Below, in pieces: positions 10,768 to 28,477 of a stretch of DNA of 59,977 nt (position 1 is its first letter; every line of letters starts with the position of its first letter). The notes beneath the pieces are model-generated. The model was not told the DNA's origin. It saw only the letters and a list, made by a program, of their open reading frames with translations, and made no database searches. Position numbers and translations under genes: made by a program. This DNA is from Dehalococcoidia bacterium (lineage in GTDB: Bacteria > Chloroflexota > Dehalococcoidia > Tepidiformales > Tepidiformaceae). The stretch is taken from contig JAGQHB010000031.1 of NCBI GenBank assembly GCA_020432045.1, positions 1 through 59,977 of the forward strand. The letters run 5' to 3'.

Positions 10768-12570
10768 CTATTCGAGCCTGCACTGCACTTCGATGGTCAC
10801 GGCCTCCCCCGGGGCGCCAAGGTAGCGGCTGAGGCTCCAGCAGGGGGCATCCAGCGGGACGGTCGCGGGAGCAAGGTCAGCGAGGATCCGCGCCCAGATA
10901 GTGACCGGATCCGGCGAAACTGCGCCGCGGGCCAACGGCTGGGCGTCGCAAACGAGCACATAGGCGGCAGAGTCCGCCGATTCGGACACGGGGAGAAGGT
11001 GTTCGCGGATCGAGTTGCAGGTGCCGTCGCCACCGGAGTTGGGCTGCGGAAGGGTGATCTTCGCGAGGAGCAGAAGTTGGACGCCCAGCAGGTAGTAGGT
11101 GTCGCCGCCATCTGACGCGAAGTGAAGCCGGGAGAGGTCGCCGGTGCAGGTGAACGGCTTCGCGGCGACGGAACCGGCGGCCGCGGCGGGCACCATATCG
11201 CCCACGATTTCGATGCAGATGTCCGAAGCGGGGGTCACATCTGCGTAGAGCCAGACGGACGGGTCGCCGCGCAGTTCGGCCACCGGCTTCAGACCGCCCG
11301 CGAGCGGTGTTGGTGATGGCTGGACGGGTGGAAGCGGCGGCCCGAGCACTTCGAGCTTCGTGATGCCAGTTGCGTCGAAACAGCCGGGCGGAGCATCGAG
11401 CAGCACGTCGGTGGCATGGCCCACGAGTGTAAATCGAAGGTAGAACGGGCCCGGATCGCCGCACCAGTTGTACCAGGAGAAGCGGGCCACGGGGTCCAGG
11501 GCCGGGAGGTTAGCGGAGACGCTGGCGGACGCTCCGTTCGAGAGGATCGTCGTCACCGGCTCCCGCGCGGCAGAGAGGACTGTGAGCGAGATCGGGTCGG
11601 CGAGGTGGCATGGAGGCGGTGTTGGGTCACCCCAGAGCTGTGCATCAACGTCGATTTGGAGAAAGGCGCCACCCTGATAATAGGTCATCTTCGGAAAGAG
11701 CAAGATGCCAGCGCCCGCGTTGCACACGGGTAGCGAAGGCGACGGTGCGTCCGGGTCCAGCGCGCGAGCTTCGAAAAGGGCAGGCTTCGCGGCGCCCGTA
11801 CATGGCGGGGCGGCGAACGAACCCGACTGGGTCGTCTTCGAAAGCAGCGTCACCGAGGCGCCGAGGGCGGCGGATTCGGCACACCAGTTGGACACCGTTG
11901 CCTCGGCGACCTGGACGCTCGTTGCTGATGATGCCGTGTAGTTGATGGAAACCGACGCGGGGTTGCCGTCCGCCGGCGCCAGGGCTGCGCCGTTCGCCAG
12001 TTCGAGGCGGATGGGGATGTCGAGCGAGAGGCGGCAGGCGCGGAGAAAGTCGACATACACCGCGAGATAGGTCTCCATGGGACGCTCGACCGCGCGCAGC
12101 GAGGGGATGACGTCGTCATCGGTGCAGGGCCTGACGGCCACGGCCGGAGATGGCGTAGCAGCCGGAGAAGCCACGGGCGTGGGGCTCGGCGCCGGAGATG
12201 CAGGTTCGTCGTCAGCATCGCCCAACAAGACGATCGCCGAGACAGCAGCGGTGGCGACGACCCCGGCCGCGAGTCCCGCCGTGAGGAGCCAGCGCGCCGT
12301 CATCATCCCGGCAAGGTCGCGCCAGGAGCGGCCTATCCGCGCAACCGGGCGCTGCTGGTGCCGCCACCACTCGGCAGCCTGTTCACGGCTCTCGAACCCC
12401 AGCTTCCCGAGGATCTCGCGGACGTGGTACTTGGCGCCGTCGAGACTGATCCCAAGGTCGTCCGCGATCTCCGCGTTGGTCTTCCCTGCAGCGATGAGGT
12501 TGAGCACCTCTTCCTGGCGGTCCGTGAGATCAAACCGGCGAGCACTCTGAAGGTGGGTCGGACGAGGCAT
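10768..12570 (-). CDS. Membrane-tethered LuxR-type regulator with ectodomain
   Basis: A 600-residue protein with a DNA-binding domain at the wrong end for a classical LuxR protein. Residues 13-70 are a GerE/LuxR HTH (LTDRQEEVLNLIAAGKTNAE, then LGISLDGAKYHVREILGKLG). A single membrane segment follows at about 92-116, then a Pro/Ala/Thr stalk and a long extracytoplasmic part. That part holds repeated units with SNWCAES and WYNWCGDPGPF, reminiscent of DUF4232-type domains. This implies a one-component sensor that binds DNA while anchored in the membrane. TACCGT ends 6 nt before the ATG. Ligand and targets unknown. Confidence 0.75.
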   Translation of the reverse strand: MPRPTHLQSARRFDLTDRQEEVLNLIAAGKTNAEIADDLGISLDGAKYHVREILGKLGFESREQAAEWWRHQQRPVARIGRSWRDLAGMMTARWLLTAGLAAGVVATAAVSAIVLLGDADDEPASPAPSPTPVASPAATPSPAVAVRPCTDDDVIPSLRAVERPMETYLAVYVDFLRACRLSLDIPIRLELANGAALAPADGNPASVSINYTASSATSVQVAEATVSNWCAESAALGASVTLLSKTTQSGSFAAPPCTGAAKPALFEARALDPDAPSPSLPVCNAGAGILLFPKMTYYQGGAFLQIDVDAQLWGDPTPPPCHLADPISLTVLSAAREPVTTILSNGASASVSANLPALDPVARFSWYNWCGDPGPFYLRFTLVGHATDVLLDAPPGCFDATGITKLEVLGPPLPPVQPSPTPLAGGLKPVAELRGDPSVWLYADVTPASDICIEIVGDMVPAAAAGSVAAKPFTCTGDLSRLHFASDGGDTYYLLGVQLLLLAKITLPQPNSGGDGTCNSIREHLLPVSESADSAAYVLVCDAQPLARGAVSPDPVTIWARILADLAPATVPLDAPCWSLSRYLGAPGEAVTIEVQCRLE

Positions 12571-17757: not shown

Positions 17758-18402
17758 TCAGGAATCGAGCCAGCTGACGTCGCCGTGCAGGTCCGGGTCG
17801 TGCTCCTTCGCCGCGAACACCTCGTATTCGGCCCTGGAAAGATCAATCGTTGTCGTGGCGCCGTGGCCGGGCCAGATGGTGGTGTTGCCGGGGAGTGTGT
17901 AGAGCCGCGAGGTGATCGACTCAAGTTCCTGCTTGAGCAGAGCATTGCTGCCAGAACGGCCCGGACCGCCGGGAAAGAGCGTGTCACCGACGAAGGCATG
18001 GGCACCGGTCACGAAGGTCGTGCTGCCGGGGGTGTGGCCCGGGTTGTGGATAGCGCGGAATGCGAGGGAGCCCATCTTCACCGTTTCACCGTGGGCTACG
18101 GCCGTGTCGCGGTGCCCCTCGGCAAGGTTCGTCTCTTCAGCGCCGGCGTACACATGGCAGCCGTATTTCTGTTTAAGACCATCGATACCTGGCGTGTGGT
18201 CGAAATGGGAGTGGGTGAGTAGGATCGCCTTCGGCTGCACCCCTGCCTCTTCGGCGACGGCGATCAGTTCCTCTGCGGTGCCCGGCGCATCGACAAATGC
18301 GGACTCGCCGGTGGCCCGGTCAACAACGATGTAGATATTGTTTCCGAACCCCACGGGGCCGGCCGAGATAATCGAAAGATCCCCGTCATCGTGGCGCTGC
18401 AT
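17758..18402 (-). CDS. Metallo-beta-lactamase-fold hydrolase
   Basis: A 214-residue single-domain hydrolase of the glyoxalase II-like type. The metal-binding motif THSHFDHTPG is at about residues 62-71, with NPGHTPGS near 120, FVGDTLFPGGPGRSG near 137 and WPGHGATT near 177. All expected His/Asp ligands appear present. GGAGGAG precedes the ATG at 18402. The substrate, possibly a glutathione- or other thiol ester, is not determined. Confidence 0.9.
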   Translation of the reverse strand: MQRHDDGDLSIISAGPVGFGNNIYIVVDRATGESAFVDAPGTAEELIAVAEEAGVQPKAILLTHSHFDHTPGIDGLKQKYGCHVYAGAEETNLAEGHRDTAVAHGETVKMGSLAFRAIHNPGHTPGSTTFVTGAHAFVGDTLFPGGPGRSGSNALLKQELESITSRLYTLPGNTTIWPGHGATTTIDLSRAEYEVFAAKEHDPDLHGDVSWLDS

Positions 18403-18558
18403 GGCATCTCCTCCTGCTGTACATGGGCTAGCGTAGCGACCGCTGGCAGCCATTGCGACCCATACACCAGCCGCTGAAAGCGGCTGCAAGAGCCCAAAGC
18501 GGCAATAGAAATGGTGAATCGGTCATGTGACGACAGGCCGTATCGAGTGTCCGCCCGG

Positions 18559-18589
18559 TTGCATCTACACGGATGGCCGATGCTATAGT
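18559..18589 (+). promoter_or_regulatory. Possible promoter of the propeller gene
   Basis: TTGCAT (18559-18564) and TATAGT (18584-18589) are separated by 19 nt, slightly long. Transcription would begin near 18596, about 50 nt before the proposed start codon. Confidence 0.35.
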
Positions 18590-18647
18590 CGAACATTCGG
18601 ACGTAGCGGGGTGCCTGTTTCGGCAGGGCGTCCGGGTGTGTATTGTC

Positions 18648-21098
18648 ATGCCCCACCCCGATCCTGAGTCGAGAAGGACGGCCAACGGTTTGACCGAACC
18701 GCTCCAAATAGGCCAATTCGCGATCGTGGACCACGAGCCCGTGGAACGCGGCCCGAACGCCGGAACTTTCCAGGGCAAGGGGCCCGCGGGCGAGCGAGCG
18801 GAGCTCTACCTGCTTGCGGAAGGCACGACGCCCGCCGGCGAATCGTTCGCCGGTCATGTGATCTCGAGTGCGGGCCAGCGATGGCAAACGCTCGACATCA
18901 GTGTGACCGGTGCGCTTCGCGACGTGTTCGCCGAAGCGGATGGCAGCCTCCGCGAATGGAACCGCAAGAGCATCGCGCAGCACCGTGTCCGTATCGGCCT
19001 GACGGCGATCGCGCGCAAGGCCGGCCAGACGATCCTCGCCCAGGCCGGGCCATCGGTGGTGTTCCACTGGATGCCCGAAGGCGTGCAGGTGTACGCACCC
19101 GATGAGGAGTTTGCGACGCCGCTTGGCATGAACGAAAAGGCCGAGCCGCAGCTGCGCCGGATCGACGTCCGCACGGGTGACCGGCTGCTGCTGATCTCGA
19201 CCGCTGCCCTGTCCGAGATGGATGACAACATCGTCGCCGGGATCCTTGGACTGCCGGCCGACACGGTGCTGCCTAATCTATTCCGGCGCGTGCGCAGTCT
19301 GCGCGATGTGACCGCACTGCTCCTCGCCGGCGAATCTGGCGCCCAGTCGATGCTGCCGCCGGGTGAGAGCGACGGGGTCATCGGCGGGGGAGCGGACGGG
19401 ACGGAGCGTGGCGGCGAAGCGCGGCCCGGATTTCAGCCGAGTCTGTTTATCAGCGACCGGGCTGAGGACGATGTCGCCGTTGCCCGCCGCCAGATCATGG
19501 CCGTCACGGAGCGACTGCGAGCCCGGGAAGCGGTCCAGCCATCGCTTGCCACGAGCAGCGCCGTCCCGGCGCCGTTGCGGCGCGCAGCCGGTGGTGAAGA
19601 GTTCCGGGGCTACATCGAAACGCGAACGTCCGCCTCCGTTGGCGCAGGGACAATGACGCCGGGCCGGTACCTCGCGGTCCAGGCCGAGCCTCCCAAGTCC
19701 GAACACACTGGCAGCCGCCGGGAAGCAAGTTTCTCCCGGAGCCTTTCGCGACGGCGGGCAGCGGCGCCGCCAGTTCGCCCCGTAAGTGACGCACCTCTTG
19801 CAGCGGAGATGGCGGCCGACCGCATCGCATCACAGCAGCCGGTGGCACTCTCGTCCACGGGTGTCGAGTCGCTGGTCAGCGACGGTGGAGCGGCGATGGA
19901 GACGACGCCGCTCGTAAAGGTCCGCTCGTCTTCCGGTGGCCGCTGGCGCCCGGATGGACCACTTTCGCGCCGCGAGCTGATCCCGGCGGGGAGCCTGCCG
20001 CCGACCTGGATGATCATCGCCGCCGGACTGGCCGTGCTGCTGGTGGTCGTTGGGTTCATCGCCGGACCACGGCTCATCGGCCGGAGCGACGACGAACGGT
20101 TTATCTCGCTGGTGAACGATGCCGAGCGGAACCTCGCCTCTGCGAGGGCTCTCCAGGACCCGGCACAGCGCCGCGAAGCACTCACAGCAGCGCAGGCACA
20201 GCTCCTCGAAGCGCGCGGCCTCGCCCCGGAATCGACAGAGGTGAGCCGCCTCCTGTTGGAAGTAACCGACGGACTGAATCAGCTCGACGGGGTTCGGGCG
20301 CCGGCCAAAGTGGAAGCTATTGCCGATCTCCGCCAGTTTGGCGAGCGGCCGCTGACCCCGGACACGATCGTTGCCGGCGGGGGCCAGCTGTTCCTGCTCG
20401 ATGGGAGCGGGGAGCAGGTGGTTGAAGTCGCACTTGATGGCGGTGCAACCCGCTCCGTCTACAAGACCGACGCAAGCCTCGGACAGGGGCGGCCTATCGC
20501 GATCGCCTACTACGAAACATCGGATGTGGGGGCGCCGGCGCTCCTCGTGGCCGACGCAAACAAAAAACTCTGGCTGGTGAGCGATCGCGAGGCACGACAG
20601 CTGCCCTTCGCCGTCACCGGCGGTGTGACGGACATCGCCACGCGCGGCCAGGAACTGTTCGTACTCGATGCGAGCGCGAAGGCGGTGTTCCGGATGGCGC
20701 CGAGCGACGGCGGCTTCGTGAGCCCCTCGAAGGTCGCCGAAGGCGACGATCTGACGAATGCGGCGCGGCTCACGATCGATGGCGACGAGATCTTTACGTC
20801 TGACAAGGACGGAACAATCCACCGCTTCGCCGGGAAGCTTGCGCTGACGATGTCAACGGCAGGAATCGACAAGCCGTTGACCGCCGCGCGGCGGGCCTCG
20901 CCGGTCGGCGAGGATGGCGAGGTCGCAGTGCTCGACCCGGCGAACGACCGGATCGTGGTCTTGCGCCGCGACGGCACCTTTGCCTACCAGTACCGGCATG
21001 CGGATTTCGCGGCGAGTGCCGCGATGGCCATCGATAGCGGCGTCGTTTACCTGTTCAGCGGCGGCTATTTACGGCAGGTAACACTGACCACGGACTAG
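18648..21098 (+). CDS. Membrane protein: degenerate PP2C-like domain plus beta-propeller
   Basis: An 816-residue protein. Residues 15-205 resemble a PPM/PP2C phosphatase: NRKSIAQHRVRIGLTAIARK, then AGPSVVFHWMPEG, then GDRLLLISTAAL, where active enzymes have TDG in place of TAA. No aspartates matching the metal sites are evident, so it is probably inactive. A low-complexity region to about 440, one membrane segment (about 452-474) and a short helical segment precede an extracytoplasmic propeller of repeated strands (LFLLDGSGEQVVEVALDGG and others) to the end. Start is uncertain: ATG 18648 or TTG 18690. Sensor role is inferred. Confidence 0.6.
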   Translation: MPHPDPESRRTANGLTEPLQIGQFAIVDHEPVERGPNAGTFQGKGPAGERAELYLLAEGTTPAGESFAGHVISSAGQRWQTLDISVTGALRDVFAEADGSLREWNRKSIAQHRVRIGLTAIARKAGQTILAQAGPSVVFHWMPEGVQVYAPDEEFATPLGMNEKAEPQLRRIDVRTGDRLLLISTAALSEMDDNIVAGILGLPADTVLPNLFRRVRSLRDVTALLLAGESGAQSMLPPGESDGVIGGGADGTERGGEARPGFQPSLFISDRAEDDVAVARRQIMAVTERLRAREAVQPSLATSSAVPAPLRRAAGGEEFRGYIETRTSASVGAGTMTPGRYLAVQAEPPKSEHTGSRREASFSRSLSRRRAAAPPVRPVSDAPLAAEMAADRIASQQPVALSSTGVESLVSDGGAAMETTPLVKVRSSSGGRWRPDGPLSRRELIPAGSLPPTWMIIAAGLAVLLVVVGFIAGPRLIGRSDDERFISLVNDAERNLASARALQDPAQRREALTAAQAQLLEARGLAPESTEVSRLLLEVTDGLNQLDGVRAPAKVEAIADLRQFGERPLTPDTIVAGGGQLFLLDGSGEQVVEVALDGGATRSVYKTDASLGQGRPIAIAYYETSDVGAPALLVADANKKLWLVSDREARQLPFAVTGGVTDIATRGQELFVLDASAKAVFRMAPSDGGFVSPSKVAEGDDLTNAARLTIDGDEIFTSDKDGTIHRFAGKLALTMSTAGIDKPLTAARRASPVGEDGEVAVLDPANDRIVVLRRDGTFAYQYRHADFAASAAMAIDSGVVYLFSGGYLRQVTLTTD

Positions 21099-21165
21099 GC
21101 CACCAAACCTTCACGCGGCGGAGATGACGCACACGCGAAACGGTGCAATACTGCCGGAAGCTACC

Positions 21166-21606
21166 ATGACATCGATCGAATCCGCAGGAATGCAAGATTT
21201 GGCAGGTTTGCCAGCGGGCCAGGTGAACCGCCACCGCCTCGTGCGCTGGTTGTTCGCAGGCCTCGGCTTCCTACTCACGGGTATCGGCATCCTGGGCATG
21301 ATCCTCCCATTGCTGCCCACGACGGTATTCCTCCTGGGTGCGGCCGGGTGCTTCGCCAAGGCCTCTCCGGGCGCCTACAAGTGGCTCACGACAAACCGCC
21401 TGTTTGGCAGCTACCTTCGAAACTACCGCGAGCACAAGGGTGCGACGCTCGGCACGAAGATCTTTTCGATCTCGACCCTCTGGGTTGGACTCGGGTTTTC
21501 AGGGTTCGTCATCGGCCCGGTGTGGTGGGTCGACCTGGTGCTGGGCGCGGTTGCGGTCGGTGTCACGTGGCATCTGGTCAGCCTGAAGACACTCCCCCGT
21601 TCGTAG
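21166..21606 (+). CDS. YbaN/DUF454 family membrane protein
   Basis: A 146-residue inner-membrane protein of the YbaN-like DUF454 family. The block GILGMILPLLPTTVFLLGAAGCFAKAS, given here by its core LPLLPTTVFLL at about residues 44-54, followed by SPGAYKWLTTNRLFG, is diagnostic. Three hydrophobic segments. Function unknown. ATG 21166 is preferred to ATG 21124 by family length, although neither has a clear ribosome-binding site. Confidence 0.8.
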   Translation: MTSIESAGMQDLAGLPAGQVNRHRLVRWLFAGLGFLLTGIGILGMILPLLPTTVFLLGAAGCFAKASPGAYKWLTTNRLFGSYLRNYREHKGATLGTKIFSISTLWVGLGFSGFVIGPVWWVDLVLGAVAVGVTWHLVSLKTLPRS

Positions 21607-21646
21607 CGGCCTGTTGGGCGCGACCCACGCTGCCGATCCTTTGAAC

Positions 21647-21904
21647 ATGGCCTCATTCTGGAAGCACGCCGTCCGCACGCCGATGCTTGGCATCACCGTC
21701 GCATTTATCGCGCTGGGTTGGTGGGGCGCACTGGATTGGGGCCCGGCACTGTCAGCCGCCACGATTGCCGCGCTCATAGCCAAGGCCGCAGACTCGTTCG
21801 CACGACGCTACGACGAGGACGACGAGCCGCCCGCGATCATCACGGATCTCCCCTCGACGCCTTCCTACCGGCAGTACGAAAACAAGTACGACCGCGCCGC
21901 GTAG
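21647..21904 (+). CDS. Small membrane protein
   Basis: An 85-residue protein with two hydrophobic segments (GITVAFIALGWWGAL and ALSAATIAALIA) and an acidic soluble tail containing YDEDDEPPA and SYRQYENKYD. No family recognised. GATCCT ends 6 nt before the ATG, one base off the TANNNT pattern. It follows the YbaN-like gene by 40 nt and may be cotranscribed. Confidence 0.5.
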   Translation: MASFWKHAVRTPMLGITVAFIALGWWGALDWGPALSAATIAALIAKAADSFARRYDEDDEPPAIITDLPSTPSYRQYENKYDRAA

Positions 21905-24545: not shown

Positions 24546-25610
24546 CTACCGCGCCTGTGCTTGCACGCCGACGAGCCCGTGTTGGTACGCGAGGATCGCG
24601 GCCTGGGTGCGGTCCCGGACTTCGAGCTTCGAAAGCACGCGTTTGACGTGCGTCTTCACGGTTCCCTCGCTCACGACGAATGCCTCGGCGATCTCTGCAT
24701 TGGAATAGCCCGAAGCGAGGAACAGCAGTACCTCGCGTTCGCGCGGCGTGAGGTCGCGAAGGCCTGCATAGCTCCAGCGCACATCGGCAGCCGCCCCCAT
24801 TTCGGGAGCAGCAGTGATTGTCTCGACGGGAGCCAGCACCGGCGCAACGCGCGACTCGGGTTCGGACACGACTGCTTCGTCCATCGGCGTGCCGGGGGAA
24901 GGCGGAGGCTGCGGCGGGTCACTGACGGGCGACGATGGGACGGAGCGCGCTCGCGAGGCCAGCATGAACCGCGCCCAGGTGGTGTGAAGCTTCGAAGCGC
25001 CCTTGATGACGTAAGCCACGAGCAGCCAGAGCACGAGGCCAACGGGGACGAGCGCGAGCGCTTCCAGCGGCGTTTCTATTACCCATTCGCGCGATGTCCC
25101 ATCGAAGAGTGACAGTTCGCCGCTGAAAAGGACGATCGCCGGGGCGGCAATGAGGCTGCCGGCGACCGCGCCACCAACGACCAGGACGATGAATGCCGCG
25201 AGGCCGATGGGGAACTGGAGGAACAAATACGCGATCCCGGTCCAGGTCGTGGGGTCGATAAGCCGTAGCTTGATGCGCTCACGGAAGCTCAGGACGCCTT
25301 CTAGCCGGAACGGTGGACGCCGAAGTGGTTGGCCGGAAACGAAGCGGACGAGCAGCGCTTCGACATCGGCGAGCCAACGGCAGATAAAGACCGTCGCGAG
25401 CAGGATGGGCGGCCCGACGAACGTCCAGACCAGGGCGCCACCGACGCTGACGGTGGTCACAAGGAAGACGAAGTAGCCCAGGCCGAGCGGGAACATCAGT
25501 CCGAGGTGTGCGGCGCGGAGAAAGGTCCGCGGGTCGACTGCCGGCCAGACCAGGCGCGAAAGCAGCGGGCGGCGGGACGGAAACGGCGCTGTCGTCATTG
25601 CGTGTGTCAT
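24546..25610 (-). CDS. Membrane Sensor-domain LuxR regulator
   Basis: A 354-residue one-component regulator. Residues 10-190 hold four hydrophobic segments in the pattern of the putative Sensor domain (PF13796) usually found in actinobacterial histidine kinases: [16 protein letters not shown], then [16 protein letters not shown], then [20 protein letters not shown] cytoplasmic Pro/Glu-rich linker leads to a GerE/LuxR HTH at about residues 285-345 ([37 protein letters not shown]). Here the sensor is fused directly to the DNA-binding output. ATG 25610 or 25598 may be the start; the upstream frame is not hydrophobic and is unlikely. Confidence 0.78.
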
Positions 25611-25696
25611 GGCGAAACAATGCCTCGCCCGGCGGGACAGCACGTCCCCCAGAGGGGGTATTTTGCCCGATCTTTGGAGTGAGGGCCTCTCAGGTG

Positions 25697-25996
25697 CTAC
25701 GGATCCTGCGAGTCGTCCGCGAATCCACGGGCGCCGTGGACATCGAACTTCATACTGTAGACCTTCTGCAGGCCAGCGATGACCTCGAGGTCGCGTTTGC
25801 CGTGGGGACTCGCACACCACTCGCCCTCTTGCCCGGGCAGCGGTTCGAAGGAATGCCAGACGATATTTTCGAGGAGCGCGGCGAGGCTGGTGCCTTTGAA
25901 TTCGGCCAGGCCTTTGAGCACCTGGACGGTCGTCTTCTCCATGCGGACTCCGAGCTGGACGCGTTCGACGGGACGGGTTTCTGACGGTTCGGGCAT
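25697..25996 (-). CDS. Ribbon-helix-helix-like small protein
   Basis: A 99-residue protein. Residues 15-47 read [20 protein letters not shown] followed by [14 protein letters not shown], the strand-helix-turn-helix spacing of ribbon-helix-helix DNA-binding proteins. The C-terminal half ([20 protein letters not shown]) is unfamiliar. The start ATG 25996 lies 4 bp from a GGTAACCTG palindrome, a natural autoregulatory operator. It is downstream of murT on the same strand. No toxin-like partner is adjacent. Confidence 0.55.
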
Positions 25997-26053: not shown

Positions 26054-27442
26054 CTACTCCCGTTCCCAGAACGCGCCGGCGGCACCTCGGCGGACGAGCT
26101 CGGCGCGGAAGTCGAGCATCGCGGTATACGTCGGGATCACGAAGATGCGAGCGCCCGAGGGTGTGTCGCGGAGGATGGCATCGAGGAGCGCGGCCGGGTC
26201 GGCGACGGTGGCGCTGGACTCGGGCCAGCCGGCGTACTTGAGGCGGAGGGCCATGTCGGGGCCGCGGTCACCGCCAGCCCAGCAACGACCGACGTGCCCG
26301 GCGAGCAGTTCGTAGTCGACGTCCCACGTCCAGGAGACGTCCTGTCCGTCGGCGAAGCGGTCGTTTAAGAGGACAGCGACATTCACGTTGCCATCCGGCG
26401 CTTCGCGCGCCACCGTCGCCAGCAACCGCAGGACCTCGTTCGCTCCGGCGGGATTCTTGGTGAGGAGGAGCCGGACGTCGCGGCCGTCGACGCGGACGGC
26501 CTCCTGGCGGCCAAACGCTGGGGCGACGGCGGCGACCCCCTGGCGGATTGCTTCGGACGGCAGGCCAAGGACGCGCGCGAGGCCGATCGCGGCGAGTGCG
26601 TTGTAGACGTTATACGTGCCGCTCAGTGGCATGGTCAGTTCGCCAATGCCGGGCACGTCGAAGGATGCGGAATCGAGCGCGAGGCGTACGTTGGTGCCAG
26701 CGGTGTCGGGCGCCGGACGGGTACGCCCGCAGCCTGGGCAGGCCCAGATGCCGGCGTGGGCGAAGTAGCGCCGCTCGTACGTGAACGTGCTCCCGCAGCG
26801 GCGGCACCAGCGGGCATCGAACGCGCCGGCCGAGGTCGTGGCGAACGCTTCGTCATCGAGGCCGAACCAGTGCACGGGGCCGGCCCAGTCGAGCGCCAGC
26901 TCGGCGACGGAAGGGTCGTCGGCGTTGAGGATGAGCGTCGCGTCACGGGGAGCGGCGGCAAGTGCTTCGCGCCACATCGCGGCTACGGTGTCGACCTCGC
27001 CGTAGCGGTCGAGCTGGTCGCGGAAAAGGTTCGTGAACGCGAGTGCGCGAGGGGCGACGGCGGCCGTGGCTGCGGGCATCGTCGCTTCGTCGACTTCGAG
27101 CAGGAGGAGGCGGTCATGGTGCGGAGCGCGGATGCCGCGATCGAGAAGGAGGGTGCTGCCGATACCGCGCATGAGGTTCGAGCCTTCGCGGTTGTGGAGG
27201 AACGGCACGTTCGACGCCTCGAGGATGCTGGCGAGCGCCCGGCTGGCAGTGGTCTTGCCGTTCGTGCCGGTGACCGTGACCGCCCCGCGGCCGAAGCGAA
27301 GTGCGAGCTTTCGGACGACGGCGGGGTCGACGCGCTCCGCGACAAGGCCGGGCAGCGCCGTACCGCCGCCACGCCGCAACAGGCGCGATGCTCGGGCGGC
27401 GGACCTGCCCGCGACGACGGCAGCAGCGAGCCGTATGTCCAC
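26054..27442 (-). CDS. murT: MurT-type Mur ligase
   Basis: A 462-residue Mur ligase-like protein matching MurT, the ATP-using subunit of MurT-GatD that amidates D-Glu of lipid II. It has the ATP-binding loop VTVTGTNGKTTASRALA near residue 55, LFRDQLDRYGEVDTVA near 145, a zinc-ribbon insert with RWCRRCGSTF and WACPGCGRT at about 210-240, and a DUF1727-like C-terminus (LLTKNPAGANEVLR). GTG 27442 is chosen because TACCCT ends 6 nt upstream and homology begins there; a 786-nt upstream extension is antisense to a lipoprotein gene. The usual partner gatD is not adjacent. Confidence 0.9.
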   Translation of the reverse strand: MDIRLAAAVVAGRSAARASRLLRRGGGTALPGLVAERVDPAVVRKLALRFGRGAVTVTGTNGKTTASRALASILEASNVPFLHNREGSNLMRGIGSTLLLDRGIRAPHHDRLLLLEVDEATMPAATAAVAPRALAFTNLFRDQLDRYGEVDTVAAMWREALAAAPRDATLILNADDPSVAELALDWAGPVHWFGLDDEAFATTSAGAFDARWCRRCGSTFTYERRYFAHAGIWACPGCGRTRPAPDTAGTNVRLALDSASFDVPGIGELTMPLSGTYNVYNALAAIGLARVLGLPSEAIRQGVAAVAPAFGRQEAVRVDGRDVRLLLTKNPAGANEVLRLLATVAREAPDGNVNVAVLLNDRFADGQDVSWTWDVDYELLAGHVGRCWAGGDRGPDMALRLKYAGWPESSATVADPAALLDAILRDTPSGARIFVIPTYTAMLDFRAELVRRGAAGAFWERE

Positions 27443-27448
27443 CGTGGG

Positions 27449-27454
27449 AGGGTA
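27449..27454 (-). promoter_or_regulatory. -10-like hexamer
   Basis: TACCCT ends 6 nt before the GTG of murT. Confidence 0.45.
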
Positions 27455-27511
27455 GCGCACGGCAGGTTTGTGATTTCTGGACATTGCGGTGGCACAGGAC
27501 GCGCGCGCGAC

Positions 27512-27517
27512 TATCCT
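27512..27517 (+). promoter_or_regulatory. -10-like hexamer
   Basis: TATCCT ends 6 nt before the ATG at 27524. Confidence 0.45.
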
Positions 27518-27523
27518 CGGGCC

Positions 27524-28477
27524 ATGCGCCTTGCAGTCCTGGCAGCGTCGCTCTTTGCACTCGCCGTGGTCGTGGCCGGATGCGGGCGCGGCGGCGGCGA
27601 GAGCGCGCTCAATGCGCCGCGCGGTGTTTCGCTTTCCCCCGACGGGGTGACGATGCTCGTGGTGGATGCGGGGACGGGCAAGGACGACGGCAAGGTCGTA
27701 TCGTTCCCGGTCCCGGCCGCGGGCAAGACGGGCGACTTTAAGCCCGTGGGAACGAAAGTCGTCTTCAAGGACCTGCCCTCCCAGAAGATGAAAGATGAGG
27801 GTTATGCGACGGTCGCGGGCCCGAGCGCGGCGGCGATGGCCCCGGATGGCGTCGTGTGCGTGGTGATCGGTGAGGGTGGCGAGTCGCAGCCGGGCGAACT
27901 GCGCTGCACCGACGGTCTCAAGGTGGACCTCACAGCAGTCGAACGCGACCGCAACCCGGACAAGGGTCCGGTGGTGAGCGACCCTTTTGGGATCGCTGCC
28001 GACGCGGACGGCGGCTGGTTCGTGAGCGACCTGCGGGCGAACAGCGTGTTGTTCATCGATCGCGCCGGGGAAGTGACGGTGGTGGCAGTGTTTAAGGATA
28101 TCGAAGGGCTGCCCTCGAACGGCCAGCCCGCGGGCGTTTACGCGATCCAGGGTCAGCGCGGGTCGCCGGTCGTCGGTGTGGCGTTGTACGGCGGCGCGTT
28201 GGCCGGTTTCTCGCCGGCGCTCCAGCAACCACCCGTCGTGCAGCAGATGGACGGGCGGGCAATCGCGCTCCAGGACGACGGGGCGGAAACTCTGGCCCTG
28301 CTCTGGAGCGACTCTTCAGGAGCACCCGGCACCGGCTCGGTGTTCAACATGACACTCGGGCTCACCGTGGCCCAGAAGCTGAACCGGCCAAGCGGATTCG
28401 TGAAGCTGCCTGACGGACGGTTGCTGATCAGCTACGAACGGACGGGAAAGCTGGAGATCGTGGGGAAGCCCCGCTGA
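27524..28477 (+). CDS. ScyD/ScyE-like propeller lipoprotein
   Basis: A 317-residue lipoprotein with the signal [20 protein letters not shown], Cys at residue 20. The mature part has propeller-like repeats: [20 protein letters not shown], then [11 protein letters not shown], then [18 protein letters not shown] with [11 protein letters not shown], then [17 protein letters not shown]. This matches the ScyD/ScyE group of extracytoplasmic propellers, whose activity is unknown outside scytonemin clusters; no such cluster is here. It is divergent from murT. Confidence 0.75.

Follow-up and report, generated by a model that had tools for sequence, protein, structure and literature searches.

A membrane protein of Tepidiformaceae with an inside PPM-fold domain devoid of its metal site and an outside NHL propeller, belonging to a predicted Chloroflexota pseudophosphatase family

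The locus and the layout of the membrane protein

The window, which is the whole 59,977-nucleotide stretch of Tepidiformaceae DNA analysed here, carries on its forward strand a gene for a large membrane protein. The parts of this protein, three positions of its former metal site and the next downstream gene are listed below.

18648..21098, forward strand: whole gene, an 816-codon open frame encoding a membrane protein of 816 residues
18684..19355, forward strand: cytoplasmic PPM/PP2C-fold domain without metal site, residues 13-236 (AlphaFold2, Foldseek, profile)
18819..18821, forward strand: E58 (in LLAEGTT) where intact PP2Cs have the DG-motif Asp; 67 of the 99 propeller-type proteins also have E
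19050..19052, forward strand: P135 (in QAGPSV) where intact PP2Cs have the GD-motif Asp; 84 of the 99 also have P
19200..19202, forward strand: T185 (in LLISTAAL) where intact PP2Cs have the SDG/TDG Asp; 39 of the 99 have T here and 31 have S
19356..20009, forward strand: variable cytoplasmic linker (mean pairwise identity 37% among 28 own-family proteins)
20010..20081, forward strand: single transmembrane helix, about residues 455-478 (from the sequence; hydrophobic, positive N side)
20160..20285, forward strand: two-helix hairpin just outside the membrane (C-terminal AlphaFold2 model, helices 6-26 and 31-47)
20289..21095, forward strand: extracytoplasmic six-bladed NHL-type beta-propeller, about residues 548-816 (AlphaFold2 and structural matches)
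21124..21606, forward strand: DUF454 membrane protein, next downstream gene (PF04304, E 6.5e-34)

The earliest in-frame ATG of the 816-codon frame lies at 18573 if the frame is followed upstream. Conservation with relatives begins near residue 12-14 of the version starting at 18648, which is therefore a fair start. A scan of 18400-21700 found no promoter. Homologues occur in 46 of the 61 genomes searched (the window genome included) and in 36 of 37 genomes of its own taxonomic family, and the window genome contains no second match at E 0.01. The 15 loci from a contig scan carry titles that name Tepidiforma, Dehalococcoidia, Chloroflexi, Thermoflexaceae or Anaerolinea, or a bacterium without further name.

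In all 99 propeller-type proteins compared, a hydrophobic helix or stretch separates the PPM-like domain from the propeller, which agrees with the single membrane helix proposed in an earlier note on this DNA. The positive-inside rule is a guide to membrane topology, and in 85 of the 99 proteins the N side of the helix has the greater net positive charge, while 7 show a tie; this extra charge fits an orientation with the N-terminal half inside. The outer part was modelled by AlphaFold2 together with the hairpin (residues 500-816) at a pLDDT of 93.2, and the predicted structure has the six-bladed NHL fold. Its best structural matches are NHL propellers, namely those of Brat (1q7f, E 1.5e-12) and PknD (1rwl, E 5.2e-10; 1rwi_A, Z 23.8), and a profile of the outer part finds PknD from sequence at 1.9e-11. 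The PknD-type outside propeller suggested previously is supported by the NHL matches. The Pfam NHL model PF01436 matches 14 of 35 members at E up to 0.1, the window protein itself not being among them. As shown by computation, Tepidiformaceae, and Chloroflexota more widely, encode a single-pass protein that consists of an inside PPM-fold domain lacking the residues for metal catalysis, one membrane helix and an outside NHL propeller.

Four other frames of the window, all outside this gene, were noted. On the reverse strand, 26054-28228 is an over-long frame for a MurT-like Mur ligase (PF08353, E 2.3e-27; PF08245), which we take to be a peptidoglycan amidation enzyme; overlapping it on the forward strand, 27521-28477 resembles a lipoprotein with propeller-like repeats recognised by eye and no Pfam match. 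Also on the reverse strand, 24546-25820 encodes a fusion of a LuxR-type DNA-binding domain to a membrane 'Sensor' domain (PF13796). The reverse-strand frame 10768-12570 encodes a 600-residue protein that starts with a LuxR-type DNA-binding domain and, as judged by eye, also has a membrane helix and an extensive outer region.

A PPM fold without its metal site

The inside domain (residues 13-236) was predicted by AlphaFold2 with a pLDDT of 90.6, using the 36-row alignment A1. In Foldseek, its top PDB match is the Ser/Thr phosphatase of S. agalactiae (2pk0, E 2.8e-14), and VIA-align likewise ranks 2pk0 first (Z 23.4, rmsd 2.9 over 211 residues), followed by S. aureus Stp1, tPphA and PstP. By sequence alone, a profile of 36 relatives detects the PP2Cs tPphA (E 6.5e-12) and PstP (3.4e-5) in the PDB. 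Because structure prediction, structural matches and sequence profile all lead to PP2Cs, the predicted PPM beta-sandwich is a firm assignment. The earlier note had described a degenerate PP2C-like domain, quoting the blocks NRKSIAQHRVRIGL and GDRLLLIS, both of which are present in the 816-residue protein, and two of the checks that it proposed, profile search and structure prediction, support this. The single sequence scores weakly: SpoIIE (PF07228) reaches 20.9 bits with the domain alone and misses the curated cut-off of 25, and for PP2C (PF00481) and PP2C_2 (PF13672) no match to the window protein was reported. PF07228 is the commonest Pfam family match among the members (27 of 36 at E up to 0.1).

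Aligned with intact PP2Cs, the window protein retains none of the five catalytic Asp residues (motifs NED, DG, GD, SDG and DN). DG has become EG, GD has become GP, the Asp of NED is lost and that of the last DN is replaced. The stretch LLISTAAL pairs with the LLCSDGL row of intact PP2Cs. The note was right that this metal-binding motif is lost, but its register, with TAA in place of TDG, was shifted: the lost Asp corresponds to T185 and the triplet to STA. The same residues were counted in 111 proteins (28 from the own family, 16 from the class and 67 from the phylum), retrieved with a profile that represents the degenerate type but also picked up intact PP2Cs. The own-family proteins come from those 28 of the 36 matching genomes whose retrieved locus contained a long frame, and all 28 have lost all five Asp. 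Among the 99 propeller-type proteins from across the phylum, 72 retain none of the five, 26 retain one and a single protein retains two, in samples that lean to better-scoring members. The phylum loci were hand-picked from the better-scoring rows among those listed for the profile scan; two of the loci, L121 and L160, are copies in one genome (G267). No Asp is left in four class proteins that lack a propeller match, and three phylum proteins that lack this match and are truncated by the locus edge (L083, L086, L091) have one. In the five canonical PP2Cs that this profile also retrieved, all five Asp are present, and none of these proteins matches this propeller. With zero to two Asp in all 99 propeller-type proteins, the loss of the metal site is old and common to the phylum instead of being private to the window, and an active PPM phosphatase is rejected on these motif counts.

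An enzyme with a remodelled site, using another metal or none, would also lack the canonical motifs. The conserved Glu at the E58 position would suit such a site, as would N105, Q132 and C/A120, which are conserved throughout the phylum. However, the GD motif has turned into GP in most of the propeller-type proteins, the SDG Asp is retained only in L119 among the rows listed, and known PPMs need two or three metals (PMC12002173). We therefore regard a surviving enzyme as extremely improbable.

The disabled domain is maintained and not decaying, as its dN/dS is low and its sequence identity is the highest of all parts. Mean dN/dS of the PPM-like domain in three genera, sampled with 5, 3 and 3 proteins, is 0.174, 0.076 and 0.084, compared with 0.366, 0.163 and 0.144 for the linker. 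Among the 28 own-family proteins, mean pairwise identity is 58% in the PPM-like domain and 49% in the propeller, with the linker lowest. The PPM-like domain is the best conserved part of the protein and is under purifying selection. It combines the attributes of a pseudophosphatase, namely a PPM fold, lost catalytic residues and retention by selection. Across the phylum, helix alpha2 and the core strands are highly conserved, and the former DGxGG loop less so. The alpha1-alpha2 helices form a regulatory switch in the active PP2C SpoIIE, as described in PMC5468089. Since alpha2 (conservation score 1.67) is no better conserved than several core strands (1.76-2.03) and alpha1 is average (1.06), a retained switch is treated as a lead.

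Two further loci contain a different architecture: L136 (7462-9756, forward strand) and L140 (6095-8365, reverse strand) encode an intact PP2C followed by one helix and an outer part of roughly 400 residues. These proteins are perhaps active receptor phosphatases. They were considered as the ancestral type and rejected, as profile comparison of their outer part with the window propeller gave a probability of 5%, and for the same reason no homology between the two outer parts is claimed.

Gene neighbours, kinases and wall genes

The protein family is present in 52 of the 118 class genomes. This count was made after removal of three canonical PP2Cs (G043, G449, G490), recognised by their motifs; the raw profile tallies, 268 of 400 in the phylum scan and 55 of 118 in the class, still contain canonical PP2Cs and should not be read as family counts. 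In 11 of the 52 genomes, the inside domain occurs alone, without a propeller match, and may thus be able to work without the outside part, a point against a receptor-like role. The genes in G042, G465, G478 and G334 were examined as possibly broken; this was rejected because the stop sits at the end of the domain, and they therefore represent complete stand-alone domains. For two more genomes, G457 and G505, the position at contig ends does not allow the stand-alone status to be judged. One locus, L050, seems to consist of helix and propeller only, ahead of tsaD.

Gene order around the target is fluid within its own family, and the DUF454 cluster lies within four genes of it in 8 regions. Across the phylum, the recurrent neighbour is tsaD, found in 19 of 91 regions; in 14 of the 91, its aligned start lies 0-66 nt past the target stop on the same strand. 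Within the class, tsaD follows within 6 kb in 33 of the 51 genomes compared, these 51 being the genomes with a TsaD row among the 53 of 55 profile-positive genomes that were typed (G043 was kept, the weak PP2C hits G449 and G490 were not). Moreover, 10 of the 11 stand-alone domains directly precede tsaD. They include L245, L246 and L247 (genomes G042, G465 and G478 of f7), where the PPM-like domain alone sits just before tsaD and no FtsW/RodA match was found. This arrangement would be expected if the inside domain, as a PPM adaptor free of metal, were to tune or anchor TsaD, an enzyme of t6A modification of tRNA, or a partner made together with it, the propeller being an optional input from outside. 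Set against this are the window genome itself, where tsaD lies on another contig (C66, the target being on C91), and most of the own family, where it is likewise elsewhere. Furthermore, TsaD occurs in 112 of the 118 class genomes, many of which lack such a protein. In several loci groES and groEL also follow downstream, so old housekeeping gene order may be all that the neighbourhood reflects; in the window, groEL lies 12.7 kb downstream of the target on the opposite strand. We consider a TsaD adaptor decidedly unlikely. A broader proposal, in which ancient phylum-wide transmembrane pseudophosphatases would work outside Ser/Thr phosphorylation, with the PPM adaptor tied to TsaD by gene order and an envelope state read by the propeller acting on t6A or translation, is highly speculative and has a slender chance of being correct.

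A link to Ser/Thr kinases was implied by the earlier note, together with a search for a conserved kinase neighbour. The pseudophosphatase might regulate a membrane Ser/Thr kinase or shield its substrates, much as the PPM pseudophosphatase TAB1 binds the kinase TAK1 (PMC12002173). The window genome has 11 Pkinase matches, and the propeller resembles that of the kinase PknD. One canonical PP2C with intact motifs is located beside a kinase in this genome, on another contig. The 816-residue protein itself yields no Pkinase match and no Hanks kinase domain, its inside domain being PPM. When all frames of 91 regions, which include the five canonical PP2Cs, were scanned for the motif of a kinase (HRD..P.N-like with DFG), a single match was obtained beside L132 and none in the window, so that a kinase neighbour is rejected as a general rule. 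Of 16 family-holding genomes, six of them chosen for having no kinase in an earlier scan and ten as their relatives, 14 have no Pkinase above the cut-off; in the same 16, no PP2C exceeded the PF00481 cut-off. Profile and kinase matches coincide weakly in the 118 class genomes (29 with both, 26 with the profile match only, 15 with kinase only, 48 with neither; phi 0.30). On a TsaD tree of 80 of the 112 genomes with TsaD (G490 and G449 have no TsaD row), nine independent pairs with support differ in kinase presence, and on average the family tracks this difference in about 0.4 of them. Thus, neither neighbourhood nor shared gains and losses sustain the implied kinase link, many genomes have the family and no kinase, and a kinase regulator is very unlikely.

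A different association was found with wall genes. By hand recount, and excluding the three canonical PP2Cs, 48 of the 118 class genomes have both the family and FtsW/RodA, 4 the family only, 5 FtsW/RodA only and 61 neither; phi between profile and FtsW/RodA was 0.90 before removal of the PP2Cs and about 0.85, calculated by hand, afterwards. All 4 family genomes without FtsW/RodA carry stand-alone domains, and among the 118 genomes the propeller type was not seen in any without an FtsW/RodA match. Such a pattern is in line with a passive envelope anchor or wall scaffold, whose propeller grips the wall or an outside protein and whose PPM-like domain is a mere stable anchor inside. On the TsaD tree, however, FtsW/RodA changes only 4 times and just one independent pair has support, so both may go back to the same single event. 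The link is strong in numbers, rests mostly on one deep split and is kept as a lead only. In addition, an inside domain more conserved than the propeller, as in the own family, would be superfluous for a mere anchor. A passive anchor is unlikely, although it is the alternative to which we would turn first.

Proposed role and comparison with known systems

The explanation that we favour, with moderate confidence, is a receptor- or anchor-like envelope pseudophosphatase whose inside domain serves as a metal-free binding module. The propeller would bind a ligand or a structure of the cell envelope. Inside, the domain would have lost phosphate cleavage and retained the PPM scaffold, including helices alpha1-alpha2, which could bind a cytosolic partner. 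The state outside would then be relayed, or the partner held, through binding alone. This partner would not be an obligate Ser/Thr kinase and may be related to TsaD or to some housekeeping process expressed along with tsaD. Of the pseudophosphatase receptor put forward in the earlier note, the pseudophosphatase with receptor-like layout stands, as fold, lost site, helix and propeller agree with it; the receptor function, with its ligand, partner and signalling parts, we infer.

As judged from the sequences, this is a phylum-wide pseudophosphatase family of Chloroflexota and not one decayed gene. A literature search found no description of it, and the PPM pseudophosphatases met in that search (TAB1, PHLPP) come from animals, whereas the present one is retained by a bacterial phylum. 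The receptor-like form occurs both where Ser/Thr kinases are present in a lineage and where they are absent. If confirmed, the family would indicate that a phosphatase fold became a metal-free binding domain early in the history of the phylum, and it would account for a group of proteins that have no Pfam name. It would also offer a natural test of the idea, put forward in PMC5468089, that the switch helices of PP2Cs prepare the fold for pseudoenzyme stages.

Among known systems, the bacterial PPM/PP2C phosphatases Stp1, tPphA and PstP share the fold and the domain length, whereas in the window protein all five catalytic Asp positions are replaced. SpoIIE has its PP2C domain joined to a membrane part, and its Pfam family is the one most often matched by the members; the window protein falls below that cut-off and differs in domain order and active site. 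The animal proteins PHLPP2 and TAB1 likewise have a PPM fold with a disabled metal centre, but their M2 site still binds one metal ion (PMC12002173), whereas the Asp positions of the window protein are gone from its sequence. Unlike both, it is bacterial, membrane-bound and combined with other domains. The layout is like that of PknD of M. tuberculosis, in which one helix connects a signalling domain inside the cell to a six-bladed NHL propeller outside (PMC1262709). In place of the kinase, the window protein carries a PPM-fold domain, and a helical hairpin and a long linker are added.
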